Assembly (NCBI GenBank): GCA_945882615.1
Contig: CAMCWK010000010.1
Span: 1 to 64,000 of the forward strand
Direction: 5' to 3'
DNA length: 64,000 nucleotides
Source: Rhizobium sp. Q54
Lineage (GTDB): Bacteria > Pseudomonadota > Alphaproteobacteria > Micropepsales > Micropepsaceae
Under the pieces are notes generated by a model. That model was not told the DNA's origin and did no database searches. It saw only the letters and a program-made list of their open reading frames with translations. How positions within the stretch are numbered: the first letter of the stretch is position 1; each line of letters starts with the position of its first letter. The position numbers and the translations under genes were made by a program. Positions 26,181 through 61,526 of the stretch are shown here, one piece after another.

Positions 26181-28064
26181 TTGCCGGGTATCAGCGCACA
26201 CATTCGCATCATTGCCATTGGGTTTACTGCCATGGCCGCAGGGTTGCTGTTTGGCGGCGCCCAGGCCGCGCCGCAGGATGACTGGCCCAATATGGGCCGC
26301 GATCCGGGCGGCGCGCGCTATTCCCCGCTCGACCAGATCACACCCGCCAATGTGAACAGCCTGAAAGTGGCGTGGAAACACGACCTCAAGCCGGCGGGCT
26401 CCGAACTGCGCAATGTCGCGTCCCAGACCACGCCGCTGGCGATCGATGGCGTGCTGTATCTCGCCAATCCTTACGGGAAAATTCAGGCGCTGGACGGCGT
26501 CACGGGCAGGGAAATCTGGTCTTACATCTTGCCGGACAATCAGCGTCCCAACACGCGCGGCATGGGCTATTGGCCCGGCGACGGCAGGAATGATCCGCGC
26601 CTGATTTTCACCACCGCCACCGGCAGGCTGGTGGCGGTGAACGCCAAGACCGGCAAGGCGCCGGAAGGCTTCGGCGACCAGCATGGCATGGTGAACTTGC
26701 GCACGCCCGACGTGATGCGCGGTTTTGAGGGTCGGCCCTATGGCGTCAGTTCCGCGCCGCTGATCTACAAGAATCTCGCCATCACCGGCAGCGCGATGGG
26801 CGAGATTCCCAAGGGACCGGCGGGCAATGTGCGCGCCTGGGACGTGTTGACCGGAAAGATGGTCTGGAGCTTCAAGACCGTGCCGGGTCCGGGCGAGCTT
26901 GGCTATGACACCTGGGCGCCGGGTTCCACCGTGGATCGCGCGGGCGCCAATGTCTGGGGCCTGATGAATGTCGATGCCGAGCGTGGCATCGCCTACCTGC
27001 CGATCGGCGCGCCATCGTCGGACCGTTATGGCGGCGACCGTCACGGCACAAACCTGTTCAGCGGCTCCCTGGTGGCGGTGAATGCCGCGACCGGCAAGTA
27101 TCTCTGGCACTTCCAGCTGGTCCATCACGACATCTGGGATCATGACATGGACACGCCGCCGGTGCTGCTGACCGTGCGCCGAGATGGCAAGGACATTCCC
27201 GCCGTCGCCACCATGACCAAGAGCGCGTACCTCTTCATCCTGGACCGCGTCACGGGCAAGCCGCTGTACGAGGTCAAGGAAGTGCCGGTGCCTGCCAGCA
27301 AAGTGACCGGCGAGCAGGCCTGGCCGACCCAGCCCATGCCGGTCAAGCCGCCGGCGCTGGCGCGCCAGAGCTTTTCGGCCGCGAAAGACATCGCCACCGT
27401 GACGCCGGAGCACAAGGCGTTCTGCGAGAAGCTGATCAAGGACAAGAAGCTGCACGATAGCGTTGCCTATTCGCCGCTCACCATGGATTCGCGGATCGCG
27501 CGTTTCCCGGGCAGCGGCGGCGGCCCGGAATGGGCCGGCGGGGCGATGGACGAAAAGCGCGGGCTTTTCATCATCAACACCCATGACATGGGCAGCATCG
27601 AAATGGTCGAGAAGAAAAAGGAAGGGCATTGGGGCTCCGCCGACGGCCCGGACAGCTTCTTCATCGATGAGAACAAGAAGCTGATGTGCCAGGAGCCGCC
27701 CTGGGGCACGCTCTATGCCATCAACGTCAACACCGGCGACATTGCCTGGAGCACCCGTCTGGGCGTCACCGACAGCCTGCCGGAAAGCGTGCGTAACACG
27801 GGCCGCCCCAGCATCGGCGGGCCGACCGTGACGGCGGGCGGGGTGATTTTCATTGCCGCCACCGACGACAGCCGCTTCCGCGCCTTTGAAACCGCCACCG
27901 GCAAGGAAGTGTGGACCCACAAGATGGATGTGTCCGCCCATGCCTCGCCGATGACCTATCGCGGCAAGGACGGCAAACAGTATGTCGCCATCGTCGCCAC
28001 GGGCGGCTCGTTCCTGCAAAGCCCGACCGGGCCCGGCAGTCTTCTGGTCTTCGCGCTGCCGTAA
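26181..28064 (+). CDS. PQQ-dependent dehydrogenase (membrane-glucose-dehydrogenase-type propeller)
   Basis: 627 residues from a TTG at 26181, chosen because GGAGGGG lies just upstream and the protein then starts with a signal peptide (IIAIGFTAMAAGLLFGGAQA); an ATG at 26076 adds an implausible leader. An eight-bladed quinoprotein propeller is seen in WPNMGRDPGGARYSPLDQI, NPYGKIQALDGVTGREIW, and HHDIWDHDMDTPPVLLTV, which holds the catalytic Asp of mGDH-like enzymes. It lacks the five-helix membrane domain and has no cytochrome domain. It would oxidise an aldose or alcohol in the periplasm. It heads a three-gene cassette with two Tat-exported enzymes. Confidence 0.88.
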   Translation: MPGISAHIRIIAIGFTAMAAGLLFGGAQAAPQDDWPNMGRDPGGARYSPLDQITPANVNSLKVAWKHDLKPAGSELRNVASQTTPLAIDGVLYLANPYGKIQALDGVTGREIWSYILPDNQRPNTRGMGYWPGDGRNDPRLIFTTATGRLVAVNAKTGKAPEGFGDQHGMVNLRTPDVMRGFEGRPYGVSSAPLIYKNLAITGSAMGEIPKGPAGNVRAWDVLTGKMVWSFKTVPGPGELGYDTWAPGSTVDRAGANVWGLMNVDAERGIAYLPIGAPSSDRYGGDRHGTNLFSGSLVAVNAATGKYLWHFQLVHHDIWDHDMDTPPVLLTVRRDGKDIPAVATMTKSAYLFILDRVTGKPLYEVKEVPVPASKVTGEQAWPTQPMPVKPPALARQSFSAAKDIATVTPEHKAFCEKLIKDKKLHDSVAYSPLTMDSRIARFPGSGGGPEWAGGAMDEKRGLFIINTHDMGSIEMVEKKKEGHWGSADGPDSFFIDENKKLMCQEPPWGTLYAINVNTGDIAWSTRLGVTDSLPESVRNTGRPSIGGPTVTAGGVIFIAATDDSRFRAFETATGKEVWTHKMDVSAHASPMTYRGKDGKQYVAIVATGGSFLQSPTGPGSLLVFALP

Positions 28065-28086
28065 AATCAAAACTCAGGGGAAACAC

Positions 28087-29265
28087 ATGACAGATACCTT
28101 CAAGAGCAAACTGTCCCGCCGCGGCCTGCTGCAGACATCGGGCGGCGCCTTGCTGGCCGGGGCTGCCGGCTTGCCTGCCTTCGCGCAGCAGGGGCCGAAC
28201 GCGCCCTATTCGCCCACGCCGCAAAAACGCCTCGGCCAGCCGCAGGAAGGCCCCGATACGCCCAAGATCACCATCTACATGAACAACCCCCTGGACGACG
28301 CGGAGGCGATCCGCATCAAGCAGCTCGGCGTCGACTGGGTCGACGTCTCTGCCGTGCCGGCCCAGCCCTGGGGCGTGGATTACCTGCAGCCGCGGATCGA
28401 CGCCTTGAAGAAACACGACATGCATATCGGCATCATGATGATGCGCTGGTCGTATCAGGGCGGACTTGATCCCGAAATGAACAAGATCGTGCGTGGCCTG
28501 CCGGGCCGCGACGAGGAAATCGCCAAAATCAAGCAGACCATCGTCAATATGGGAAAGGTGGGCATTCCGGTTCTGGAATGGAATTTCTACACCCATCGCG
28601 CCACCGACGGTTACAAGACACTGCCCGGCCGCGGCGGCGCTGGCTATTCGGACTTCAATTACGAGCGCATGAAAGACCTGCCCCCGCTTGCCGCCGATGG
28701 CGCGGTCCAGAATTATGACGATACCTGGAAGCACCTGACCTACTTCCTGAAGGAAGTGATCCCGGTGGCGGAAAAGAACAATGTGGTCATGTCGGTACAT
28801 GCCAACGATCCGCCCTCGCCCATGAGCCGCGGTTCGGCCCAGGTGCTGAACAGCTTTTCGGACTGGAAGCGGCTGGTCGAGACAGTGAATTCGCCGTTCA
28901 ATACCCTGACCTGGGACTGTGGTGTCACCCGCGAGATCGGGGAAGACCCGGTCGTGGTGGGCGAATGGCTGGCCTCGCGCAACCGCATCGGCCAGGTGCA
29001 TTTCCGCAATGTGATCACGCGCAAGCCGCGCCTGGATTATGTCGAAACCTTCCCCGACGATGGCGAGGTCGACATGTATGACGTGATGAAGGTGCTGGTG
29101 CGCAACAACTACAAGCGCCTGATCTTCCCCGAGCATCCGCGCGCCCTGGAGACCGACAAGCTGCTCCCCCGGGAGGTGCAGACCACGAATTCCGGCTGGG
29201 CCTATAATGTGGGCCATTGCCGGGCGATGTTGCAGATCGCCCTGCGCGAATTGCGGGGCATGTAA
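28087..29265 (+). CDS. Tat-exported mannonate-dehydratase-like TIM-barrel protein
   Basis: 392 residues from the ATG at 28087 (AGGGGA upstream). The N-terminus LSRRGLLQTSGGALLAG is a twin-arginine signal ending at AFAQQ. The body matches the UxuA/mannonate dehydratase TIM barrel: VPVLEWNFYTHRAT-like segment, VVMSVHANDPPSP, NTLTWDCGVTREIGED, RIGQVHFRNV and LIFPEHPRA, with the metal-binding His/Asp/Cys-rich strand ends kept. UxuA normally works in the cytosol on D-mannonate to give 2-keto-3-deoxygluconate. Export suggests that an aldonate made by the preceding quinoprotein is dehydrated outside. Dehydratase activity is inferred, not shown. Confidence 0.8.
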   Translation: MTDTFKSKLSRRGLLQTSGGALLAGAAGLPAFAQQGPNAPYSPTPQKRLGQPQEGPDTPKITIYMNNPLDDAEAIRIKQLGVDWVDVSAVPAQPWGVDYLQPRIDALKKHDMHIGIMMMRWSYQGGLDPEMNKIVRGLPGRDEEIAKIKQTIVNMGKVGIPVLEWNFYTHRATDGYKTLPGRGGAGYSDFNYERMKDLPPLAADGAVQNYDDTWKHLTYFLKEVIPVAEKNNVVMSVHANDPPSPMSRGSAQVLNSFSDWKRLVETVNSPFNTLTWDCGVTREIGEDPVVVGEWLASRNRIGQVHFRNVITRKPRLDYVETFPDDGEVDMYDVMKVLVRNNYKRLIFPEHPRALETDKLLPREVQTTNSGWAYNVGHCRAMLQIALRELRGM

Positions 29266-29310
29266 AAGCGCTTCCTTGACCTCAACATTCCAACGCCGAG
29301 GGGAATAAAC

Positions 29311-30330
29311 ATGACTCAGGACCGTCGCAGCATGATCAAGGGCATGGGGCTTGGCGCAGGCGCGGCCGTTATGGCCGCCGCCGGGGCAGCTCAGGCGCAG
29401 CCGCGCGGGCCCGGAATGCCCACCAATCAGCGTCCGCTGAAGGGCATCGACATCACCAACATTGTCACGGCAGATGGCCTGGGCCTGGGCGTGAAGACGG
29501 CGCGCGGCGTGCTGGACGTCGCCGGTGTGGAGCGCGACCGCAAGATCGGTCTTCCGACCAAGGCGATCGATGTGATCAACGGCCGGGGCAATCTGGAAGC
29601 GCTGGGCTTGTTGCTCGCCAACGGCGCGGCCGGCGCCCCGGCCAGCCGCCTGATACCGGAAGGCCAGGTTCGCTTCGGCAACATCGTTGAAAATCCGGGC
29701 AAGATCCTGTGCGTCGGGCTCAACTATGCCGCCCACGCCGCGGAGGGCGGCAGCAAGCCGCCCAAGGAGCCGATCATGTTCAGCAAGTTCAACAGCGCGC
29801 TGAACCACCACAACGGCACCATCGCGGTCAGCAAGTCGACCGCGCCGCCCAAGTGGGACTATGAGGCTGAACTGGTGCTGGTGCTGGGCAAGGGCGGCCG
29901 CGACATTCCGGAAAGCCAGGCCCTGAACCATGTCTATGGCTATGCCTCCGGCAACGACTTCACCAATCGCGACCTGCAGCGCCGCTCGGCGCAGTGGCTG
30001 CTGGGCAAGAGCACGGACGGTTCAGGCCCGTTCGGTCCCTGGCTGGTCAGCGCCGATCAGGTGGACGTCAACAATCTGGACATGAAGATGCTGGTCAATG
30101 GCGAGGTTCGCCAGAGCACCAACACAAGGTTGATGATCTTCACCTGCGCCCAGATCATCGCCTATTGCTCGAAGGCCTTCGCCCTGGAAGCGGGCGATGT
30201 GATCTTCACCGGCACCTGCGAAGGCGTGATCAGCGGCTATCCGCCGGAAAAGCAGGTCTGGCTCAAGCCGGGAGACAAGATGGTGACCTCGATCGAGAAG
30301 ATCGGCGACCTCCACGTCACCCTGACCTGA
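29311..30330 (+). CDS. Tat-exported fumarylacetoacetate-hydrolase family protein
   Basis: 339 residues. QDRRSMIKGMGLGAGAA is a twin-arginine signal ending at AAQAQ. Residues about 40-120 are an N-terminal domain, and about 125-339 the FAH domain: ILCVGLNYAAHAAE, PIMFSKFNSAL, WDYEAELVLVLGKGG (metal Glu residues), GNDFTNRDLQ (metal Asp), KSTDGSGPFGPW and GDVIFTGTCEGV. The family hydrolyses or decarboxylates/dehydrates diketo and keto-deoxy acids. Third in the cassette after the quinoprotein and the UxuA-like protein, it could act on the resulting 2-keto-3-deoxy acid. Export of an FAH enzyme is unusual. A palindromic repeat lies 20 bases downstream. Confidence 0.85.
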   Translation: MTQDRRSMIKGMGLGAGAAVMAAAGAAQAQPRGPGMPTNQRPLKGIDITNIVTADGLGLGVKTARGVLDVAGVERDRKIGLPTKAIDVINGRGNLEALGLLLANGAAGAPASRLIPEGQVRFGNIVENPGKILCVGLNYAAHAAEGGSKPPKEPIMFSKFNSALNHHNGTIAVSKSTAPPKWDYEAELVLVLGKGGRDIPESQALNHVYGYASGNDFTNRDLQRRSAQWLLGKSTDGSGPFGPWLVSADQVDVNNLDMKMLVNGEVRQSTNTRLMIFTCAQIIAYCSKAFALEAGDVIFTGTCEGVISGYPPEKQVWLKPGDKMVTSIEKIGDLHVTLT

Positions 30331-30349
30331 CCAGCCTGGGGGGAGAAGG

Positions 30350-30381
30350 GAATGTCCGCTTATGACCCAAAGCGGACATTC
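30350..30381. repeat. MSALGHKR-type intergenic palindromic repeat, copy 1
   Basis: A perfect 12-bp inverted repeat (30350-30361 with 30370-30381) has an 8-nt loop. On the minus strand it reads ATGTCCGCTTTGGGTCATAA, which would encode MSALGHK, the hallmark of palindromes scattered through many alphaproteobacterial genomes. The flanking GGGGAG and CTCCCC runs extend the stem imperfectly. It may also work as a terminator for the convergent genes ending at 30330 and 30430. The second copy is at 31957. Confidence 0.7.
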
Positions 30382-30429
30382 GATCTGATAATTCCCTCCC
30401 CAAGAAAATCGAGGGTTCGCCCCCGTGCG

Positions 30430-31956: not shown

Positions 31957-31984
31957 GAATGTCCGCTTTTGGCGCAAAGCGGAC
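31957..31984. repeat. MSALGHKR-type intergenic palindromic repeat, copy 2
   Basis: Shares GAATGTCCGCTT and CAAAGCGGAC with copy 1 at 30350. The stem is 9 bp here (31961-31969 with 31976-31984). It lies in the 274-base gap between the permease and a quinoprotein gene. I see no gene in that gap; short frames crossing it are repeat-derived. Confidence 0.65.
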
Positions 31985-32092: not shown

Positions 32093-34168
32093 TCACTTTG
32101 CTTTCGGCAGGGCAAAGACATAGACGGCGTGCCCCACCGTCGGGCGATTGCGCTCGAAGGCGAACATGCTGGCGGGCCTGACCTGCGGGCTGCCGCCATT
32201 ATAGCCGGTGGGAACAGCAACGAACTGCTCGCCATTGACCGTGAAGGTGGTGGGGAAACCCGCAGCCGTCGTGCCCAGCCGGGTCGTCCACAGGGTCTTG
32301 CCGGTCTTGACGTCGAAGGCCCGGAATGTGCGGTCCCAATCGCCGATAAATCCGACACCGCCAGCCGTCGTCATCGAACTGGTCAGGAAGGGTGCGCGCT
32401 GCTGCAAGGTCCAGACCGGCTTCAGGTCCTTCACCCGATAGGCGCTCAGCCGTCCCATATTGCCATCCGAGCCCGGCGCTTCGTAATTGCCGGGCATGTC
32501 GCCCCCCGACATCACGCAGATCTGCATCAACGGATAGATGATCAGATCTTCGCCCGGAACGTAGCTTGCGGCCGGCCAGTTGTGGCCGCCCGACTGGGCC
32601 GGGCATGAGGACCGCGACGCCCCCGGCTCCTGCTTCACGATGTCCGGGCGATAGGTGGCGCGGCCGGTCTTGCGGTCGATGTTGGTAAAGACATTCTGGA
32701 AAACCATCGGGACATAGTCGAGGAACTTCCCGGTGGTGCGATCGAGCTTCCACAGAATGCCCGGCTTGCCGGCGCTGAGAAGAAGTTTCTGCGAACCATT
32801 GTCCACCAGGATTTTTTCATAGACTTCGTCCAGGTCCAGGCCCTCATCCGGCGCTGACTGATGGTACCATTTGAGCTTGCCGGTATCGACGTCCAGCGCG
32901 ATGGTGGCGTTGCTGAAAAGCTTGTCGCCGATGCCGTGCCTGCCGGCCTTGGCCTGGCCGGTGCCGAAATAGATCAGCCGCAGCTTGGGATCATAGGTGC
33001 CCGCGATCCAGGCATCGGCGCCCGACCGCTCGCCGTTGGTCATGCTGCCCCAGGTATCCCCGCCCGGCTCGCCGGTATAGGCGACGGTGGAGAATTTCCA
33101 GATCTGGCGGCCATCCTTGACGTCATAGGCGGCGATGAAGCAGCGGTCCAACAGCGTAGCCTCGTCGCACACGCCAAGCCCGAGGATGAGCTTGCCATCG
33201 GCGATCATCACGCTGCCGATCTTGTCCCGGCCATAATCGGAAATCTTGAATTTCCAGTTGACCTTGCCGGTGCGCGCGTCGAGCGCATACATGGTGGCGT
33301 CGCTGGCGGGATAGAAAAGCTGGTTGCCGTACAGCGCCATGGCGCGCGCCGTGGCGTTGACCTGGTTTACCAGCCGGGGCCCCAGCCGGTTTTCCCAGAT
33401 CAGGTCGCCGGTCGCCGCATTCAGCGCCTGCACCGTATTGTTGATGACGGTCGAAACGAACATCACGCCGTCATGCACCAAAGGCGTGATCTGCTGGCGT
33501 TCGCCATCTTCCATCGACCACACCCAGCGCAGTTGCAGATTGTGCACGTTCTTGGCGTTGATCTGCTTCAGCGGCGAATGGCTCCAGCCGGCATAATTCT
33601 GGTAATGCATCAGCCAGTCGGCGGCGGGCGGATTCAGCAGAATTTCTTCGGTGACGGGCGTGTATTTTTCGACCGTTCCCGGAAAGCTGAGGCCGAAAAC
33701 TTCGGGTCCGCCGCTGGGGCTGACATAACCCGCATAGGGGTCTCTGCGCTGCGAGATGATCGTGTTGATCGCCACATTCGTCGCCGGGGTCAGGGCTGTG
33801 GTACCGGCTGCAGCCCCATTGGCCTTCAGGATATACGCCACGATCGAATTGGTTTCGGCATCGGTCAGGCTGCCCGGATTGGTGAGCGGCATGGTTTTCT
33901 GGATGCGGGTATGAAGATCGCGCGTGCTGCGCTTCGTCCAGGACTGGGTAAAGGCCGGACCCACCAGGCGGATGGTTTCGCCGCCGCTGTCGTGGCAGGC
34001 GGAACAACGGGCCGTATAGAGCGCCTGACCGGCCTGCGCCTGGGTCTCGGTAAAGGGCCCAGCCGCGGTGCTGCTTTGCGCAATGGCATTCGACGCCCAA
34101 ATGGCGGCAGCCGCCGCCGCCCCAAGTCCGGCAACCGCGCCGAACGCGCGCATGGTGTTCCTGATCAT
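32093..34168 (-). CDS. Quinohaemoprotein dehydrogenase with N-terminal cytochrome c
   Basis: 691 residues from the ATG at 34168 (GGAG upstream). The signal peptide ends near residue 31 (AIAQS). A c-type haem domain follows, with CSACH at 55-59 and a probable Met ligand in KTMPLTNPG near 95. From about residue 190 a PQQ alcohol-dehydrogenase-type propeller is seen: YAGWSHSPLKQINAKNV, ALNAATGDLIWENRLG, GEPGGDTWG, ALDVDTGKLKWYHQ, WLGDWDRTF-like FIGDWDRTFRAFDVKTG. Known quinohaemoprotein alcohol dehydrogenases carry the haem domain at the C-terminus; here it is at the N-terminus. It would oxidise a periplasmic alcohol or sugar and pass electrons through its own haem. It sits 13 bases after the CHRD gene. 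Confidence 0.88.
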   Translation of the reverse strand: MIRNTMRAFGAVAGLGAAAAAAIWASNAIAQSSTAAGPFTETQAQAGQALYTARCSACHDSGGETIRLVGPAFTQSWTKRSTRDLHTRIQKTMPLTNPGSLTDAETNSIVAYILKANGAAAGTTALTPATNVAINTIISQRRDPYAGYVSPSGGPEVFGLSFPGTVEKYTPVTEEILLNPPAADWLMHYQNYAGWSHSPLKQINAKNVHNLQLRWVWSMEDGERQQITPLVHDGVMFVSTVINNTVQALNAATGDLIWENRLGPRLVNQVNATARAMALYGNQLFYPASDATMYALDARTGKVNWKFKISDYGRDKIGSVMIADGKLILGLGVCDEATLLDRCFIAAYDVKDGRQIWKFSTVAYTGEPGGDTWGSMTNGERSGADAWIAGTYDPKLRLIYFGTGQAKAGRHGIGDKLFSNATIALDVDTGKLKWYHQSAPDEGLDLDEVYEKILVDNGSQKLLLSAGKPGILWKLDRTTGKFLDYVPMVFQNVFTNIDRKTGRATYRPDIVKQEPGASRSSCPAQSGGHNWPAASYVPGEDLIIYPLMQICVMSGGDMPGNYEAPGSDGNMGRLSAYRVKDLKPVWTLQQRAPFLTSSMTTAGGVGFIGDWDRTFRAFDVKTGKTLWTTRLGTTAAGFPTTFTVNGEQFVAVPTGYNGGSPQVRPASMFAFERNRPTVGHAVYVFALPKAK

Positions 34169-34181
34169 GTGTGCTCCGCGC

Positions 34182-34706
34182 TCAGCTATTGTTCTTGTTC
34201 GCCGGACCATCGTCCTGGCCGTCGAGAAGATTGGGGATATACCAGCTGCCCATCTGCGGCACGCCTTGCGGCACCGTCACATGCGCCGGCTGAAACCAGC
34301 CCCACAGATTGCCCTTGGACGCGCTCTGGCTATCGAGAATGACGTAGAGCTTTCCGACCTTCAAAGCCGCGACCTGGGGCGGCGTCAGGGTGAAGGTGCC
34401 GGAAATCTCGCCGCTCTGTGCCTGCACAATCTTGAGATCGCCTATGGCGGGGCCCGTTCCCCCCATCACATTACCGATATGAAGGCGTGCCTCGGTCGCC
34501 GGGGAGGACAGACCGGAGAATTTTCCCTGCAGCGAGAATGTGTTGTTGTCGAGCACGGCCAGCACCGTGCCGCGGCCCTGGACGTTGGCTCCCTGCCGGT
34601 TATTCTTCGGGGTCGGCCCGATGTCCGTCTGGTAATTTTCGGCTGCAAATGCCGGAGCCGTCGCAAAAAGGACTGCCGCGACGAGCGAAACAATTCTCAA
34701 AATCAC
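34182..34706 (-). CDS. Exported CHRD-domain protein
   Basis: 174 residues from a GTG at 34706, chosen for the GAGGGAA site about eight bases upstream; a TTG at 34742 has none. The signal peptide covers LRIVSLVAAVLFATAPAFAA. The rest fits a CHRD-like beta-sandwich (EARLHIGNVMGGTGPAIGDL, GEISGTFTLTPPQVAALKVG, LYVILDSQSASKGNLWG). The family was named from chordin, and bacterial members are extracellular proteins of unknown role. It directly precedes the quinohaemoprotein gene, so it may be an assembly or binding partner. Confidence 0.75.
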   Translation of the reverse strand: MILRIVSLVAAVLFATAPAFAAENYQTDIGPTPKNNRQGANVQGRGTVLAVLDNNTFSLQGKFSGLSSPATEARLHIGNVMGGTGPAIGDLKIVQAQSGEISGTFTLTPPQVAALKVGKLYVILDSQSASKGNLWGWFQPAHVTVPQGVPQMGSWYIPNLLDGQDDGPANKNNS

Positions 34707-34842
34707 GATGCCATTCCCTCGGTAAGCCACACGATTTGCCAAACCACCGGCGCGCCCGTTGTTTTAAGCGCGCTTTTTCATTCGCGCAACCAAGCACGAT
34801 CCCAGCCGGTGGCAGTTGGAAGTAGCGCGCGCCCGTCTGGCG

Positions 34843-35133
34843 TCAGGCTTCGTCCAGATAATGATGCACCACAGGCGGGTGGGCGAAGAAATGTCCGACT
34901 ACCGCCCGCCAGTCGGTGAAATTCTTCGATTGCTTGAAGGTCACGGTGTGATCTTCCAGCGTCTGCCACCACACCACCAGGATGAAAGTATCGGGTTCCT
35001 CGATGCCGGGGCGCAGTTCGAGGCGGTGGCAGCCTTTGGACTGTTCGATGAACGTCCGCCCGCGCGAGAAAGCCTCCAGGAACTGTTCGGCCTGGCCGGG
35101 ATGGATGGTGAATATGGCGGTTTCCAGGATCAT
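34843..35133 (-). CDS. Antibiotic-biosynthesis-monooxygenase (ABM) domain protein
   Basis: 96 residues. The ATG at 35133 overlaps the stop of the MFS gene in ATGA. The small ferredoxin-like fold is recognisable: MILETAIFTIHPGQAEQFLE, QSKGCHRLELRPGIEEPDTF, WQTLEDHTVTFKQSKNFTDW, and a His-rich C-terminus (HFFAHPPVVHHY). ABM proteins are cofactor-free monooxygenases, isomerases or dimer-forming binding proteins. It is last in an operon with an amidohydrolase, a hydroxyacid dehydrogenase and a transporter, so a small catabolic isomerase or oxygenase role is likely. The same frame stays open far upstream, which can mislead gene callers. Confidence 0.85.
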   Translation of the reverse strand: MILETAIFTIHPGQAEQFLEAFSRGRTFIEQSKGCHRLELRPGIEEPDTFILVVWWQTLEDHTVTFKQSKNFTDWRAVVGHFFAHPPVVHHYLDEA

Positions 35134-36374
35134 GCGGGCTTCTCGTCCCATTTGAGATATTTGAGCAGCAGGCTGAGGGCGGCCGAGAGCAGGGCGCAGC
35201 CCGCCATCACATAAAGACCGGTCGAAAAATCCCCGCCGCGCGCGGTGGCGCCCACGATATAGGGCCCCAGGAATCCGCCCAGATTGCCGGTGGCGTTGAT
35301 GGCGGCGATGCCCGCCGCCGCCGCCATGCCGCTCAGCATCAAGGGCGGCAGGGACCAGAACACCACCGCCTGGGCATAGAGCCCGATGGCGGCAATCGAG
35401 ATGGCGACCAGCGACCACACCGATGGTCCCAGGAAAGCGCTGATGGTAAGGCCCCCGGCCGCCAGCAGCATGGCGGCGATCACATGCCAGTGCCGCTCGT
35501 TGAAACGGTCGGAGCTCCAGGCCCAGGCCACCGCGCCCAGCGCGGCGGTAAGAAAGGGAATGGTGGCGGCAAAACCGACCTGTGTGTTGGTCAGCCCTGC
35601 GCCCGACAGGATCAGCGGCAGGAACAGGCTGACGCCATACATCGCCATGTTGCGGGTGAAGTAGATCAGCGATAAGAGGCCCGCGCGGCGGTTGAGGATG
35701 GCGCGGATCTGTTCCCACACCCCGCCATGATGCCGGCCGGTCTGCACCGCGCCTTCCAGCCAGGTGCGTTCTTCGACCGTCAGCCATTTGGCGTCGCGCG
35801 GCCGGTCGCTCAAGGCCCGCAGGATATAAAAGCCCAGCAGCACGGCAGGCACCGCTTCGACCACGAACATCCACTGCCAGCCTGTCAGGCCGAGAACGCC
35901 GTTCATCGCCAGAAGCGGCACCGACAACATGCCGGCAACCGCATTGCCCATCGGTGCGGCGAAGAAAAAGATCGCGGTGGCGCGCGCCCGGTAGCCTGGG
36001 GGAAACCAGTAGGTGATGTAGAGGACCAGTCCGGGCACAAAACCGGCTTCCGCCGCGCCCAGCAGAAAGCGCACGATCAGGAAACTGGTCGGACCCGTCA
36101 CCAGCGCCATGGCGCCGGAAATGATTCCCCAGGTGATCATGATGCGGGCGATCCAGCGCCGTGCCCCCACCCGTTCCAGGATCAGGTTGCTGGGAACCTC
36201 GAACGCGAAATAGGCCAGGAAGAAGATGCCCGCCCCCCAGGCATAGGCCGTGGTGGAAAGACCCAGATCGGCATTCATGGTCAGCGCCGCGAAGCTGACA
36301 TTGACCCGGTCGAGCTGGTTGATCAGGAACATCAGGGCCATCAGCGGCGGCAGCCGCCACATGACCTTGCGCAT
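35130..36374 (-). CDS. MFS transporter of the anion:cation symporter type
   Basis: 414 residues, about 12 membrane helices. NQLDRVNVSFAALTMNADLG and LAYFAFEVPSNLILERVGAR are the opening signatures of the ACS branch, which includes hexuronate, tartrate, glucarate and phthalate permeases. FLLGAAEAGFVPG is the helix-4 motif. It most likely takes up an organic anion used by its operon partners. It lies 35 bases after the dehydrogenase gene and is coupled by ATGA overlap to the ABM gene. Confidence 0.88.
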   Translation of the reverse strand: MRKVMWRLPPLMALMFLINQLDRVNVSFAALTMNADLGLSTTAYAWGAGIFFLAYFAFEVPSNLILERVGARRWIARIMITWGIISGAMALVTGPTSFLIVRFLLGAAEAGFVPGLVLYITYWFPPGYRARATAIFFFAAPMGNAVAGMLSVPLLAMNGVLGLTGWQWMFVVEAVPAVLLGFYILRALSDRPRDAKWLTVEERTWLEGAVQTGRHHGGVWEQIRAILNRRAGLLSLIYFTRNMAMYGVSLFLPLILSGAGLTNTQVGFAATIPFLTAALGAVAWAWSSDRFNERHWHVIAAMLLAAGGLTISAFLGPSVWSLVAISIAAIGLYAQAVVFWSLPPLMLSGMAAAAGIAAINATGNLGGFLGPYIVGATARGGDFSTGLYVMAGCALLSAALSLLLKYLKWDEKPA

Positions 36375-36409: not shown

Positions 36410-37285
36410 TCAGGATTTTGGCTTTTCGTACAGCCGCGCCACGGCGGCGCCGTCCACCATTTCATTGTCGGCGGCAAAGGCGTGATAGCGCTCCACCGCC
36501 TTGGCCAGCAGCGGCAGCTCCAGATTGTGCGCCTTCACGAACGTCATGACGTTCTTCAGATCCTTGTCCAGTTGGCGGGCATAGCTGCGCGGCGGCAGGT
36601 AATCGCGCGCCTGCTGCTGGGGATAGATGCGGCGCAAAACCGTGCTGTCGGCCATGCCGCCGGCCAGTGCGCCGGGAAGCCTTGCGGCGTCGATGCCGGC
36701 GGCTTCCGCCAGCGCCAGGGTTTCGCCCATCATCACATAACCGATGCCGACGATCGCCTGATTGATGATCTTGGCGGTCTGGCCGGCGCTCAGCGCCCCG
36801 ATATGGGTGAGGTTGGTGGCCAGATCGGTCAGCACGGTCGTGGCACGCGCCACGTCGTCGTCGGCGCCGCCCATCATGATGGTGAGCGCGCCATCGCCGG
36901 CCGCCACCGGGCCGCCGGAAATTGGCGCATCCACCCAACCCATGCCGGTTTCCTTTTTCAGGCGTTCGGCCAGTACCAGCGTGGTGTCGGGATTGATGGT
37001 GGAGGTATCAATAAGAAGTGTCGCGCCCGATGCGGCGCGCGCCATGCCGTGGGGGCCGAAGCAACATTGTTCAACTGCATCGCCATGCAGCACACAGAAG
37101 ATCACGATATCACTGGTGGCGCGCACCGCGGCGGGGCTGTCCAGCACGGTGGCGCCCGGCACTTCAGCATAACGCTCCGGTTCCAGGTTCCACACCGACA
37201 CGCTCCAGCCCTGCGCCATCAGGCGGCGTACCATCGGCGCCCCCATGATGCCGATGCCGACAAAGCCGATCCTTGGCTTGCTCAT
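36410..37285 (-). CDS. NAD(P)-dependent hydroxyacid dehydrogenase (HIBADH family)
   Basis: 291 residues. The Rossmann motif IGFVGIGIMGAPMVRRLMAQG is at the N-terminus (the first 20 residues of it are diagnostic), VDAPISGGPVAAGDG is the substrate-binding loop, and the catalytic Lys lies in GQTAKIINQAIVG. The family covers 3-hydroxyisobutyrate, tartronate semialdehyde and related beta-hydroxyacid dehydrogenases. Its overlap with the preceding amidohydrolase gene (ATGA) and the ACS transporter next door point to breakdown of a sugar acid or similar compound. The substrate is not determined. Confidence 0.88.
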   Translation of the reverse strand: MSKPRIGFVGIGIMGAPMVRRLMAQGWSVSVWNLEPERYAEVPGATVLDSPAAVRATSDIVIFCVLHGDAVEQCCFGPHGMARAASGATLLIDTSTINPDTTLVLAERLKKETGMGWVDAPISGGPVAAGDGALTIMMGGADDDVARATTVLTDLATNLTHIGALSAGQTAKIINQAIVGIGYVMMGETLALAEAAGIDAARLPGALAGGMADSTVLRRIYPQQQARDYLPPRSYARQLDKDLKNVMTFVKAHNLELPLLAKAVERYHAFAADNEMVDGAAVARLYEKPKS

Positions 37286-38205
37286 GGCGTGGCGCTTTCG
37301 GTGAGGCGGTAGATGCGCCTGGCATTGTCGGCGAACAGTTTTTTCTGCACGGCGGGTCCCATTGTTCTTGTTGCTTCATTGAAGCCGGAAAAGATCGTCG
37401 CAAAGCTTCCCGTGAGGCTATCCACCGGGAAATTGCTGGCGAACATGCAGCGATCCTCCCCGAAGATTCTGATCGTGTCCAGAATGACCTGGCGGTTTCG
37501 CTCAATGCTCCAGGCAATGCCGGGTTCGCCCAGCCCGGAAATCTTGACCGAGACATTGGGCGCGGCGGCGAACCGTTCCATCGCCCGCCGCCAGCCCGCC
37601 AGTTCGTCTTCGCCGCGGTTCCGCGGTAGGCCGGTATGGTTGAGGATGATGGGCGTGTGCGGAAAATCAGCCGCCAGCCGCGCGCCTTCCTCCAGATGCC
37701 ACCAGGGTGTCTGCAGGTCGAAGGAGAGGTTGTGCTTCTCCAGCAGGGCATAGCTGCGCCGCCAGGTGGGATCGTCCATCGATCCGGGCAGGCCCGTGAC
37801 GATCTTGTCCGGCGATGGCGCTGCTGCCGGTTTGTGCCGGATGCCCCGCACCAGCGGATACCGCGCCTGCTGCGCCAGTATGTCGGCGGCGTCGGAACGG
37901 TGCAGGGTGACATGGCACACCATGGCGGTGGGAAGCCCTGCCTGCTTCGCCAGCGTGTGTACCCAGCGCGTCTCGCCCACCGGATCGGTGCGGTCCCATT
38001 CGGTTTCGACAAAGACCGTGCCCACCAGATTCATCCCCCCGGCATCGCGGCGGTAATCTGGGGGCATGTAATTGTTGCGGATCGCGCTGTAATCGCCATA
38101 GCGGAAGGGGATCGGCGGCTGGTCGCGCAGCCAGGGCAGATAATTCTTGTCCAGGTCCCAGAAATGCTGGTGCGGGTCGATGACGGGTACATCGGGCAAG
38201 GTCAT
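37282..38205 (-). CDS. Amidohydrolase_2 family, lactonase-like
   Basis: 307 residues from the ATG at 38205 (AAGAAGAG upstream); an ATG at 38247 is in frame but lacks a site. VIDPHQHFWDLDKNYLPWL is the opening of L-fuconolactonase/pyrone-dicarboxylate lactonase-type amidohydrolases, with HxH. FVETEWDRTDPV, LVRGIRHKP, IILNHTGLP and CMFASNFPVD (metal Asp replaced by Asn in FASN, a known variation) follow. No signal peptide, so cytosolic. It is the first gene of the four-gene operon and probably opens a lactone ring for the dehydrogenase that follows. Confidence 0.85.
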   Translation of the reverse strand: MTLPDVPVIDPHQHFWDLDKNYLPWLRDQPPIPFRYGDYSAIRNNYMPPDYRRDAGGMNLVGTVFVETEWDRTDPVGETRWVHTLAKQAGLPTAMVCHVTLHRSDAADILAQQARYPLVRGIRHKPAAAPSPDKIVTGLPGSMDDPTWRRSYALLEKHNLSFDLQTPWWHLEEGARLAADFPHTPIILNHTGLPRNRGEDELAGWRRAMERFAAAPNVSVKISGLGEPGIAWSIERNRQVILDTIRIFGEDRCMFASNFPVDSLTGSFATIFSGFNEATRTMGPAVQKKLFADNARRIYRLTESATP

Positions 38206-57954: not shown

Positions 57955-60078
57955 ATGCGTTTGTATGTCTGCGCGCTTGCCGCCGCGATGCTATTCGCCA
58001 CCGCCGCCAAAGCCGAGACCGGTTATGACCTGTGGCTGCGCTACACCCCGGTCGAGGCGCAATACAAGAACCGTTACGCCGTCAGCGCGATCGTCGCCGG
58101 CGCATCTTCGCCCACCCTGGATGCGGCGCGGGACGAGTTGAATCGGGGTCTGGCCGGCATGCTGGGCGCCGCTCCCGCGACAGCCGGGACCGTGACCGGC
58201 GACGGGGCACTGGTGATCGGCACGCCCGCTTCATCGTCCGTCGTGGCGGGACTGAATTTGCCGCTGAACGCGCTGGGCCGCGAAGGCTATCTGATCCGCA
58301 ATGTTGTCATTGGGGGGCGCAAGGCGACCGTGATCGCCGCCAATAGCGATGTCGGCGTGCTGTACGGCGCTTTTGCCTATCTGCGCCTGATCCAGTCGCG
58401 CCAGCCCATCGCCGACACCCTGTCGGCACCCAAAACCAAAATCCGCATCCTCAATCACTGGGACAATCTCGACCGCTCGGTGGAGCGCGGTTATGCCGGC
58501 GCCTCGATCTTCAACTGGCATACGCTGCCCGGCCATATCTCGCCGCGCTATATCGACTATGCCCGCGCCAATGCCTCCATCGGCATCAATGGCATGGTGC
58601 CCAACAACGTCAACGCCAATGCCGCCATCCTGTCGGCCGAATATATCGAAAAGGCGAAGGCCCTGGCTGATGCGCTGCGCCCCTATGGCATCAGGCTTTA
58701 TCTGTCGGTGCGCTGGAGTGCGCCGATGGAAATCAGCAAGCTGAAAACCGCCGATCCGATGGACCCGGCGGTGAAAGCCTGGTGGCAGGCAAAAGCCGCC
58801 GAGATTTACAAGGCGATTCCCGATTTCGGCGGCTTCCTGGTGAAAGCCAATTCCGAAGGCCAGCCGGGCCCGCAGGATTACGGCCGCAACCATGCCGACG
58901 GCGCCAACCTGATCGCCGACGTCATCAAGCCTTATGGCGGCGTGGTGATGTGGCGGGCCTTTGTCTATGCCAACGATCCCAAGCTGGACCGGGCCACGGC
59001 GGCTTACAAGGAATTCGTGCCGCTGGACGGCAGCTTTCGCGACAATGTCGTGGTGCAGGTCAAGAACGGCCCGATCGATTTCATGCCGCGCGAACCCTTC
59101 TCGCCGCTGTTCGCCGCCATGCCCAAGACCTCGCTGATGCTGGAATTGCAGATCACCAAGGAGTATCTCGGCCAGCAGACGCATCTGGTCTATCTGGGCC
59201 CGCTGTTCGAGGAGACTCTGAAGGCCGATACCTATGCGCGCGGGCCCGGCTCGACCATCGCGAAAATCACCGATGGCAGCCTGGACGGCCATGCCACCTC
59301 CGGCGTGGCAGGCGTCGCCAATATCGGCAATGACGCCGACTGGTCCGGCTCCATCTTCAACCAGGCCAACTGGTATGTGTTTGGACGCATGGCCTGGGAT
59401 ACCGAAATTTCCGCCCGCGCGGTTGCCGAGGAATGGACGCGCCAGACCTTCACCGCCGATCCGCAGTTCGTGAATCCGGTGGTCAACATGATGATGGCCT
59501 CGCGTGAGGCGGTGGTGGATTACATGACGCCGCTGGGGCTGCATCACATCATGGCCTATGGCCATCACATGGGGCCGGCGCCCTGGGATGACACCGGGCC
59601 GCGCGAAGACTGGCGGCCGGTCTATTACCACCGCGCCGCCAAGGATGGCGTAGGGGTGGACCGCGTCGCCAGCGGCTATGCCGCGCAATACCGCTCGCCG
59701 CTGAAAGAGCGTTTTTCAAAGGTCGCGGCCACGCCGGAAGAATATCTGCTCTGGTTCCACCGGCTGCCCTGGGACTATCGCGTGAAATCGGGGCGCACCC
59801 TGTGGCAGGAAATGGTGGCGCATTACCGGCGCGGTGTGGACGCCGTGGCAAAAATGCAGTCCGACTGGGCCGCGTTGAAACCCTATGTGGATGATGAACG
59901 CTTCGGGCAGGTCACGTCGTTCCTCGCCATCCAGCACCGCGAAGCGGTGTGGTGGCGCGACGCGTGCCTGGCCTATTTCGCGCAATTCTCCGGCCAGCCC
60001 TTCCCGCCGGATTATGCGCCCAAATATCCGCTCTCTTATTATCAGGCGATGCCGATCTACGCCTCGCCGCCGCCCTGA
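57955..60078 (+). CDS. Exported GH67 alpha-glucuronidase
   Basis: 707 residues with a signal peptide (LYVCALAAAMLFATAAKA). GH67 architecture: an N-terminal alpha/beta domain (residues about 25-140, GALVIGTPASSSVV), then the TIM barrel with RILNHWDNLDRSVERGYAG, GFLVKANSEGQPGPQDYGRN, GVVMWRAFVYAND, LMLELQITKEYLG and the helical C-terminal domain (TPLGLHHIMAYGHHMGPAPW, WWRDACLAYF). GH67 removes 4-O-methyl-glucuronic acid from xylo-oligosaccharides. Acidic residues of the active site are visible in the SEGQPGPQD region. An extracytoplasmic position fits hemicellulose breakdown before uptake. The start has a masked ribosome site, suggesting translational regulation. Confidence 0.92.
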   Translation: MRLYVCALAAAMLFATAAKAETGYDLWLRYTPVEAQYKNRYAVSAIVAGASSPTLDAARDELNRGLAGMLGAAPATAGTVTGDGALVIGTPASSSVVAGLNLPLNALGREGYLIRNVVIGGRKATVIAANSDVGVLYGAFAYLRLIQSRQPIADTLSAPKTKIRILNHWDNLDRSVERGYAGASIFNWHTLPGHISPRYIDYARANASIGINGMVPNNVNANAAILSAEYIEKAKALADALRPYGIRLYLSVRWSAPMEISKLKTADPMDPAVKAWWQAKAAEIYKAIPDFGGFLVKANSEGQPGPQDYGRNHADGANLIADVIKPYGGVVMWRAFVYANDPKLDRATAAYKEFVPLDGSFRDNVVVQVKNGPIDFMPREPFSPLFAAMPKTSLMLELQITKEYLGQQTHLVYLGPLFEETLKADTYARGPGSTIAKITDGSLDGHATSGVAGVANIGNDADWSGSIFNQANWYVFGRMAWDTEISARAVAEEWTRQTFTADPQFVNPVVNMMMASREAVVDYMTPLGLHHIMAYGHHMGPAPWDDTGPREDWRPVYYHRAAKDGVGVDRVASGYAAQYRSPLKERFSKVAATPEEYLLWFHRLPWDYRVKSGRTLWQEMVAHYRRGVDAVAKMQSDWAALKPYVDDERFGQVTSFLAIQHREAVWWRDACLAYFAQFSGQPFPPDYAPKYPLSYYQAMPIYASPPP

Positions 60079-60083
60079 CCCAA

Positions 60084-61373
60084 TTAGGGCGGGGTGAGCT
60101 TGAACAGCTTGCCGCGCTCGGCCAGGGCATAGACCGCGCCGTCGGGAGCGATCTTCACATCGCGCATGCGCAGCTTCTGGTCGGTCAGCATCGGCTCTTC
60201 CGCCACCACCTTGTCGCCCTTGATCTCCAGCCGGTAGATGCCGACACCGCGCAGGCCCGCCACGAACAGGCTGTTTTTCCATTGCGGGAACAGGTCGCCC
60301 TGATAGAAAGCCATCGCGGAGGTGCCGATCACCGGGTCCCAGTAATAGACCGGCTGCTCCATCCCCTTCTTGGCGACACCTTCCCCGATCGGCTCGCCGG
60401 GATAATTGATCCCCCGGGTGATGATGGGCCAGCCGTAATTCTTGCCACGCCCGATGATGTTCACCTCGTCGCCGCCGCGCGGGCCATGTTCGACTTCCCA
60501 TAGCTGCCCGGTTTTCGGGTCAAATGCCAGCCCCTGCGGACTGCGCAGGCCATAGGCCCAGATTTCCGGCAGTGCGCCCTTGGTCTGGAGGAAGGGATTG
60601 TCCTTGGCAGGCGCGCCTTCGGGGGTCAGGTGCACCACCTTGCCCAGGTGATTGTCCAGCTTCTGCGCCAGCTTGGCCATATAGTCCCAATGCCGGTTGG
60701 CATCGCGGTCGCCCATGATCAGGAAGATCGAGCCGTCCTTGCCAAAGACAATGCGGCCGCCCTGTTTGCTGGACCAATTGTTCAGCGGCACCGCCGGTGA
60801 TCCCTTGAAGATCACCTTGACGTCCCGCACCGCATTGCCGTTTTCGTCCAGTGTCGCATAGGCGAGGTTGGTGTTGCTCCAGAAGCCTTTCTCCACAACC
60901 TCGAAGAAGCTGAAATAGATGCGGCGGCTTTTGGCGAAGTCCGGCGCCAGCACGACTTCCAGCAGGCCCAGCTTGTGGCCGGGCGCGGCGATATTCTCCA
61001 AACCGGTCAGCGGCGCCGACAGATTGCCGGAAGGCTCCAGCACCTTCAGCGCACCCGGCAGCTTCTCGCTGACCAGCAACTTGCCACCCGGCAGGAAGGC
61101 GACGCTCCAGCCCGTGCCGAGCTTGTCGGTGACGAGGGTGACCTTGTGCGGCGCCACGCTTTTGAAAGGCGCGCGGGTCTGTTCCTGGAAGGCGGGATTG
61201 TTCTTGGGCGTTTCCGGGGGGCGGGGGTCCCAGTATTCGCCTTCCGCCACCTTGGGTGCGGGATGTTCGCGCGATTCGCCCTCCGGCAGCGGCGCGGTCG
61301 CTATGGTTTGCGCCGCCAGCGGGGCGGGCAGCAGGGCCAGGCAAAGCATTCCGGGCTTCAGCCAATCGTTCAC
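60084..61373 (-). CDS. Soluble PQQ-dependent aldose sugar dehydrogenase (YliI/ASD type)
   Basis: 429 residues from a GTG at 61373 (GGGAGA six bases upstream). Signal peptide PGMLCLALLPAPLAAQT. A linker (residues about 22-75, Pro-rich) is followed by a six-bladed propeller of the soluble glucose dehydrogenase family: GTGWSVAFLPGGKLLVSEK, GHKLGLLEVVLAPDFAKSRR, GGRIVFGKDGSIFLIMGDRD, AYGLRSPQGLAFDPKTGQLW, EVEHGPRGGDEVNIIGRGKN, YGWPIITRG. PQQ-binding His, Arg and Glu positions appear present. It oxidises aldoses in the periplasm. Convergent with the alpha-glucuronidase gene, 5 bases apart. Confidence 0.88.
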   Translation of the reverse strand: MNDWLKPGMLCLALLPAPLAAQTIATAPLPEGESREHPAPKVAEGEYWDPRPPETPKNNPAFQEQTRAPFKSVAPHKVTLVTDKLGTGWSVAFLPGGKLLVSEKLPGALKVLEPSGNLSAPLTGLENIAAPGHKLGLLEVVLAPDFAKSRRIYFSFFEVVEKGFWSNTNLAYATLDENGNAVRDVKVIFKGSPAVPLNNWSSKQGGRIVFGKDGSIFLIMGDRDANRHWDYMAKLAQKLDNHLGKVVHLTPEGAPAKDNPFLQTKGALPEIWAYGLRSPQGLAFDPKTGQLWEVEHGPRGGDEVNIIGRGKNYGWPIITRGINYPGEPIGEGVAKKGMEQPVYYWDPVIGTSAMAFYQGDLFPQWKNSLFVAGLRGVGIYRLEIKGDKVVAEEPMLTDQKLRMRDVKIAPDGAVYALAERGKLFKLTPP

Positions 61374-61452
61374 GCGCGTCTCCCGTTATTTTGGCGGCAG
61401 TTTAGCCGGCGTCTGGCGGTGCGCCTAGCCGGTTTGGGGGTGACGCCGCCGC

Positions 61453-61462
61453 TTGTATACAT
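61453..61462. promoter_or_regulatory. TGTATACA palindrome, candidate GntR-type operator
   Basis: TTGTATACAT at 61453-61462 contains the perfect 8-bp palindrome TGTATACA, in the divergent region between the PQQ sugar dehydrogenase (start 61373) and the symporter (start 61527). Its centre is about 69 bases before the symporter start. The core resembles operators of GntR-family hexuronate regulators; no regulator is encoded in the window. Confidence 0.3.
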
Positions 61463-61526
61463 CTAGACTTGGCCCCGGGCCGGATAACAAAAGCCGAAAA
61501 GGCATTGCTGGGCAGGGGATACGGGC

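Follow-up and report, generated by a model that had tools for sequence, protein, structure and literature searches.

The window, as the whole stretch of DNA analyzed here is called, comprises 64,000 nt (63% GC) of contig CAMCWK010000010.1 in a genome (G000) of 2.85 Mb, assembled in 56 contigs and rated 100% complete. Its forward strand carries three consecutive open reading frames (ORFs), which encode a soluble pyrroloquinoline quinone (PQQ)-dependent dehydrogenase (the quinoprotein), a TIM barrel related to the mannonate dehydratase UxuA (the barrel), and a protein of the fumarylacetoacetate hydrolase (FAH) superfamily (Table 1). The intergenic gaps measure 22 and 45 bp, and each gene has a purine-rich stretch 5' of its start. 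An earlier reading of the bare sequence (the original prediction) had named these three genes, their families and their spacing, all of which were confirmed from the ORFs and Pfam matches, and had proposed that the encoded enzymes break down sugar acids in the periplasm. The evidence presented here tips modestly in favor of a periplasmic module that would degrade a sugar acid, or a deoxysugar or pentose behind it.

All three proteins begin with an apparent export leader, as had been predicted. The leader of the quinoprotein (LPGISAHIRIIAIGFTAMAAGLLFGGAQA) is of the Sec type by eye, and those of the barrel (LSRRGLLQTSGGALLAGAAGLPAFA) and the FAH protein (QDRRSMIKGMGLGAGAAVMAAAGAAQA) are of the twin-arginine translocation (Tat) type. 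Tat leaders in related proteins were scored with a simple script that tests for a twin-arginine motif, a hydrophobic stretch, and A-x-A, a crude measure as compared with SignalP or TatP. By this measure a Tat-like leader is present in 16/16 barrel orthologues with a readable start (orthologues being defined by at least 67% identity in a sample of 69 genomes of the genus), in 10/10 chosen barrel paralogues, in 5/5 complete FAH orthologues (one further copy is truncated where its contig ends), and in all 16 orthologues examined of a second dehydratase-like protein, of the ManD type, which is described below. Outside this check were the G018 barrel, truncated by the end of its contig, and the incomplete ManD-type matches of G008 and G081. 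No leader was scored at the called start of any of three true UxuA proteins; in one of them (locus L048) the frame is open further upstream, and an RR stretch located 43 codons before the called start satisfies the crude script. TatC is encoded in G000. The conserved leaders and TatC provide sequence evidence for export of the barrel and the FAH protein through Tat, and argue against the concern, raised with the original prediction, that the leaders might not be functional. Tat export would fit enzymes that take up metal while folding in the cytosol.

The quinoprotein matches PF01011 (PQQ propeller) over its full length (603 bits, Pfam). Its nearest NCBIfam model is TIGR03074 (435.8 bits against a cut-off of 832.65), the profile of which is matched from position 150; the N-terminal membrane domain of the glucose-type enzymes is absent. 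The protein is identical to Escherichia coli Gcd at the positions of Asp466, Lys493, Arg266, Trp404, Asn607, and Asp693, and Asp354-Asn355 of Gcd is replaced by Gly-Glu. Because the catalytic positions of Gcd are kept, the protein is probably an active quinoprotein.

The FAH protein matches PF01557 (FAA_hydrolase), likewise over its full length (212 bits, Pfam). Its closest solved relative is L-2,4-diketo-3-deoxyrhamnonate hydrolase (PDB code 8gsr, 1e-45), and the nearest NCBIfam model is NF053535 (2,4-didehydro-3-deoxy-L-rhamnonate hydrolase; 194 bits, under the cut-off of 500). The predicted metal ligands (Glu184, Glu186, and Asp216) and the predicted catalytic pair (His142/Glu145) are kept in 5/5 aligned complete orthologues, and the pair corresponds to His83/Glu86, reported for a C-C hydrolase of the FAH superfamily in PMC6336799. 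These features make the FAH protein a likely C-C hydrolase; its substrate would then have to be a 2,4-diketo acid and not a plain 2-keto-3-deoxy acid, and oxidation at C4 would have to come first. A Weimberg-like reading, with the FAH protein as a 2-keto-3-deoxypentonate dehydratase, is considered less likely, since the His/Glu pair is in keeping with C-C hydrolysis.

The barrel is matched in part by the PF03786 (UxuA) profile (122 bits, cut-off 23.7; best stretch at profile positions 178-329 of 352), and also by PF01261 (xylose-isomerase-like; 43 bits). Solved relatives are found under PDB codes 1tz9, 3ban, and 4eac, the best of which are mannonate dehydratases. The predicted metal site consists of His238, Asp277, His305, and Glu349. 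His238, His305, and His350 are present in 23/23 aligned rows and Arg352 in 22/23; His350 and Arg352 are the His and Arg that follow the last UxuA ligand. One loop is shorter in the barrel than in true UxuA, and the alignment is ambiguous near the C terminus, where the Streptococcus suis UxuA enzyme has a catalytic Tyr. An AlphaFold2 model of the barrel, built with six related rows, was too poor (mean predicted local distance difference test score 46.7), and no structural claim is drawn from it.

Seventeen barrel orthologues are encoded in 16 of the 69 genomes of the genus, and the records that contain close relatives of the barrel are metagenome-assembled genomes. In a phylum sample of 398 genomes the barrel is matched at 1e-20 or better in 10, G000 included, with none outside G000 above 38% identity, and within that sample the close barrel clade looks confined to the genus; a plasmid search was uninformative, the best 20 of 367 matches all lying at 28-32% identity. 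The quinoprotein adjoins the barrel, or lies one small gene away, at 7 of the 17 loci, with the two genes co-directional in the window, G015, G092, and G086, and convergent in G012, G016, and G008, where one of the three loci has a small gene between them. This adjacency, in seven genomes and two arrangements, is more than chance. Quinoprotein orthologues lie away from the barrel in G017, G018, and G001; in 10 genomes the two positions were compared contig by contig or were visibly apart. The exported FAH protein adjoins the barrel at four loci (the window, G015, G092, and one G085 copy, where the gap is ∼1.1 kb). Of the six FAH copies of at least 89% identity, five have an exported dehydratase-like gene as a neighbor, and the remaining one is truncated by its contig. 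In G086 one FAH copy is divergent not from the barrel but from a different Tat-led protein of the MR_MLE type (the pair at L189:479-1687 and 1862-2881), 28% identical to the ManD-type protein.

The ManD-type protein belongs to the enolase superfamily and is unrelated to the barrel, making it a second exported dehydratase-like family linked to the barrel. It scores 407 bits with NF043051, against a cut-off of 550, and matches the solved dehydratase 3tw9 at 8e-131. Tat-led members adjoin the barrel at 5/17 loci (G001, G036, G018, G066, and G090), and the G000 protein (G000:C14:34342-35664), also Tat-led, shares 71% identity with the barrel-adjoining member of G001. All 16 barrel genomes encode a ManD-type protein of at least 70% identity, as compared with 2 of the 53 others (G014 and G081; Fisher p = 8e-14 with ancestry ignored). 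For quinoprotein orthologues (at least 60% identity) the corresponding counts are 15/16 and 2/53 (p = 4e-12), and for the FAH protein (at least 89%) 5/16 and 0/53 (p = 4e-4), ancestry again being ignored. Partial ManD-type matches (fragments in G008 and one in G081) and a partial quinoprotein match in G001 were counted as present, and in the genomes richest in quinoproteins only part of the candidates entered the orthologue table and the match counts given below.

Sugar-acid-type genes recur around the barrel, beginning with the minus-strand genes of the window itself (Table 1). Counterparts of the major facilitator superfamily (MFS) transporter and of the 3-hydroxyisobutyrate dehydrogenase (HIBADH)-like gene are found beside and near the cassette, respectively, at loci L042, L046, and L149; a counterpart of the Amidohydrolase_2 gene stands beside the cassette in L042 and L046 and was not called in L149. 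A true UxuA adjoins the barrel at 4/17 loci, one of them cut by a contig end, and three of these four also carry an MFS protein of the sugar-acid type (D-galactonate-transporter-like) and a gene that we take to be hydroxypyruvate-isomerase-like. G000 has a true UxuA copy of its own (513 bits, Pfam only). Beside barrel paralogues (L056 and L154) lie a rhamnonate-dehydratase-like MR_MLE protein and another MFS protein. No neighboring gene scanned against NCBIfam reaches its cut-off, and the names therefore give directions and not assignments.

Table 1. Coordinates of the cassette, its leaders and nearby features in the window.
Feature	Position	Strand	Description
Quinoprotein	26181..28064	+	627 aa, TTG start; soluble PQQ-dependent dehydrogenase, glucose/quinate/shikimate type; Sec-type signal peptide; no membrane domain
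UxuA-like TIM barrel	28087..29265	+	392 aa, Tat-led; PF03786, PF01261
Twin-arginine leader of UxuA-like barrel	28087..28185	+	SRRGLLQ, hydrophobic stretch, A-x-A; end by eye
FAH-superfamily protein	29311..30330	+	339 aa, Tat-led; PF01557
Twin-arginine leader of FAH protein	29311..29397	+	DRRSMIK; end by eye
Inverted repeat GGAATGTCCGCTT ... AAGCGGACATTC	30349..30382		Perfect; directly 3' of third stop codon
MFS transporter, sugar-acid type	35130..36374	-	PF07690; nearest TIGR00893 (D-galactonate transporter), 291 bits, cut-off 395
2-Hydroxy-3-oxopropionate reductase/HIBADH-like dehydrogenase	36410..37285	-	Nearest NF008592, 189 bits, cut-off 397
Amidohydrolase_2 protein	37282..38205	-	PF04909; nearest L-fucono-1,5-lactonase NF052480, 91 bits, cut-off 400; no leader by eye

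The inverted repeat that follows the cassette was matched in 0 of 100 shuffles. As a pair it occurs nowhere else in the window, and one half is repeated at 31957. It was not called in a terminator scan, and may either mark where the transcription unit ends or represent a dispersed palindrome. A promoter scan found nothing. A quinohaemoprotein (cytochrome c and PQQ propeller; 32093-34210) and a CHRD-domain gene (34182-34742) form a pair that recurs in L053, where it adjoins the quinoprotein, and in L044, where the barrel is ∼6.5 kb away. Further along the window, at 57955-63263, a GH67 alpha-glucuronidase, a GSDH-type (PF07995) dehydrogenase, and a sodium-solute symporter are encoded, as for glucuronoxylan use. 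Beside five barrel paralogues and one orthologue (L155) stands an exported gene (L055, L056, L057, L153, L154, and L155) that we assume to be DUF4432 aldose-epimerase-like and that NCBIfam does not match; in L056, L153, L154, and L155 it sits within a more extensive block that also includes a propeller protein and small genes of membrane-protein-like character.

The recurring neighbors suggest a sugar-acid role; the reactions, the substrate, and the order of steps are all inferred. In the proposed scheme the barrel, exported through Tat folded and metal-loaded, would dehydrate a sugar acid to a 2-keto-3-deoxy acid, which the quinoprotein would oxidize at C4 to a 2,4-diketo acid. The exported FAH protein, as its closest solved relative and the His/Glu pair suggest, would then hydrolyze the diketo acid to pyruvate and a small hydroxy acid. 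The quinoprotein is the candidate C4 oxidant because it is the sole dehydrogenase in the cassette; none of the three genes encodes a short-chain dehydrogenase/reductase (SDR), and only the quinoprotein among them could be a 4-dehydrogenase. At loci without an adjoining quinoprotein, the oxidation would have to be supplied by one of the many other quinoproteins or take place inside the cell. Products, or unspent sugar acid, would be imported, perhaps via the neighboring MFS protein. The original prediction ran from aldose to aldonate to 2-keto-3-deoxy acid to product, with the quinoprotein drawing electrons from the parent sugar at C1. That order gives way here, as the apparent C-C hydrolase would need a 2,4-diketo acid, and the order of dehydration, oxidation, and hydrolysis, as in Route III of deoxysugar and pentose breakdown, is preferred to it, if only tentatively.

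Several observations weigh against a periplasmic sugar-acid module, beginning with the barrel. It falls below the curated UxuA cut-offs, with 78.2 bits against 199.55 for TIGR00695 and 100.3 against 191 for NF003027, the cut-offs being 2.6 and 1.9 times its scores. Relative to the UxuA ligands His/Cys/His/Asp, as in the S. suis enzyme, the ligand Cys is replaced by Asp and the ligand Asp by Glu in 19/19 aligned rows of the exported clade. These rows took in 11 of the 17 orthologues and eight paralogues (one a fragment); the orthologues of G086, G066, G079, G036, and G018 and the second copy of G085 were outside the alignment. Both Cys and Asp are kept in the four other rows, of which three are true UxuA proteins and the fourth is a more distant exported paralogue on contig C3 of G000. 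With two ligands altered and scores below every curated UxuA cut-off tried, the chemistry of the barrel may differ from that of UxuA. Because of these failed models and the clade-wide replacements, membership in the family is no sufficient ground for assuming aldonate dehydration, and the assignment of the barrel as a canonical UxuA mannonate dehydratase was rejected. The catalytic residues, the absence of which had been put forward as a test, are thus partly lost: two ligands are replaced, the metal site is complete though altered, and His350 and Arg352 are kept. In the quinoprotein, His262 of Gcd is replaced by Arg.

The supply of cofactor is a further difficulty. G000 has 25 matches to the quinoprotein query in its 2.85 Mb; no PqqC match was found in this genome, and its best PqqE match reaches 34 bits against a cut-off of 381. 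The same applies to all nine genomes with at least 23 quinoprotein matches among the 37 searched (G000, G001, G008, G009, G012, G015, G016, G017, and G018), none of which has a PqqC match or a PqqE above cut-off. The positive control, G003, is above cut-off for both proteins, and 14 named control genomes are above it for neither. As PqqC is absent and PqqE is not above cut-off, the cell seems to depend on scavenged or imported PQQ. Alphaproteobacteria are described as likely PQQ producers rather than scavengers in PMC12124388.

The altered metal site also bears on a different reading of the barrel, as an exported enzyme that isomerizes or epimerizes keto- or aldo-sugars, with the quinoprotein making a keto sugar that the barrel rearranges and the FAH protein serving a separate role. 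Its His/Asp/His/Glu set is nearer to isomerase-type sites; PF01261 matches it, ribulose-phosphate epimerase models do so weakly, and the presumed DUF4432-like exported gene, unmatched by NCBIfam, adjoins its paralogues and the orthologue in L155. We regard this reading as unlikely, however, as the best solved relatives of the barrel are mannonate dehydratases, His350 and Arg352 are kept, and the most consistent exported partner in the barrel genomes is a dehydratase of the ManD type.

The distribution of the genes provides the remaining points against the module. The exact trio occurs at 3/17 loci (the window, G015, and G092), the barrels of which are all at least 90% identical to the query, so that the three-gene order expected across genomes was not borne out; homologues rarely co-occur as far as the trio is concerned, but not in the case of the barrel and quinoprotein, with their 7/17 loci. 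None of the three partners is nearby at 4/17 loci, two of them on short contigs (G079 and G017) and two on long contigs (G031 and one copy of G085); this G085 copy adjoins a DUF4432-like gene. The barrel bearers may be one subclade, and the co-occurrence counts disregard shared ancestry. A second FAH copy of G086 lies at a contig end with no dehydratase on its readable side. FAH relatives at 41-42% identity are encoded in G069, G070, G071, and G087, which have no barrel orthologue, and the one checked of the four (G071) has a leader-like start; leader-bearing FAH proteins are consequently not tied to the barrel everywhere. At ManD-type loci the neighboring FAH protein is leaderless in L156, where the crude script found RR pairs but no hydrophobic stretch in this small protein, and others start alike, so that cleavage there would be cytosolic.

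These counts are relevant to the possibility that there is no pathway, and that three exported enzymes of unrelated function are adjacent by chance. The 25 quinoprotein matches raise the odds of such neighbors, the trio is restricted to close relatives, and four loci lack any partner. Set against this, the orthologous quinoprotein adjoins the barrel in seven genomes and two arrangements, and five of the six close FAH copies adjoin an exported dehydratase-like gene, with the sixth cut by a contig end; chance adjacency is accordingly judged less likely still than the isomerase reading. Least probable is a cyclitol pathway akin to periplasmic quinate and shikimate use, in which a cyclitol oxidized by the quinoprotein would be dehydrated by the barrel, in the manner of QuiA/QuiB/QuiC; the quinoprotein is nearest the glucose/quinate/shikimate subfamily and Acinetobacter pairs a PQQ dehydrogenase with exported dehydratases, one a TIM barrel, but the barrel matches UxuA and not dehydroshikimate dehydratases, the neighbors are of the sugar-acid type, and the FAH protein is nearest to 2,4-diketo-3-deoxyrhamnonate hydrolase.

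Taken together, the periplasmic sugar-acid module retains the support of the conserved leaders, the linkage to the ManD-type family, TatC, the catalytic positions of the quinoprotein and FAH protein, and the sugar-acid-type neighbors, and is weakened by the altered barrel and the rarity of the trio. Its fullest form is more doubtful: a complete non-phosphorylative route in a PQQ-collecting lineage, in which a re-liganded UxuA-type or a ManD-type dehydratase and the FAH protein would release pyruvate together with a small hydroxy acid beyond the inner membrane, with the quinoprotein replacing the NAD-dependent 4-dehydrogenase and passing electrons to the respiratory chain. If the conserved exported set is what it appears to be, the carbon-splitting part of sugar catabolism would move to the periplasm, directly coupled to the respiratory chain and dependent on a scavenged cofactor. 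Two testable enzyme clades are indicated, one re-liganded and UxuA-like, the other Tat-led and ManD-like; a non-exhaustive search met no characterized member of either. To our knowledge, sugar-acid dehydratases and diketo-acid hydrolases are cytosolic enzymes, and no route combining an exported sugar-acid dehydratase with an FAH protein was found in the open-licence literature, among the matches listed.

A periplasmic counterpart is the QuiA/QuiB/QuiC route for quinate, which likewise joins a PQQ dehydrogenase to exported dehydratases; its dehydratases are of other families, and an FAH enzyme is present only in the set described here. The barrel resembles the UxuA/ManD mannonate dehydratases (PF03786; 1tz9, 3ban, and 4eac) in family and in His238, His305, His350, and Arg352, but differs from them in its Tat leader, its Cys to Asp and Asp to Glu ligands, its sub-cut-off scores, and its shorter loop. 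Similarly, the partner protein found with its relatives is close in sequence to the enolase-superfamily ManD enzymes (NF043051; 3tw9), but is Tat-led and sub-cut-off. Non-phosphorylative Route III of L-rhamnose, L-fucose, and pentose breakdown (PMC6336799) shares the dehydratase, the dehydrogenase, and the FAH enzyme with its His/Glu pair; its 4-dehydrogenation uses an NAD-dependent SDR, whereas a quinoprotein is proposed here, and the word "periplasm" does not occur in that text. For SAR202 (PMC10444878), the abstract names NAD(P)-dependent dehydrogenases and the sole mention of signal peptides in the paper concerns archaellin; the feature held in common is an expanded set of sugar-acid dehydratase paralogues feeding non-phosphorylative routes.

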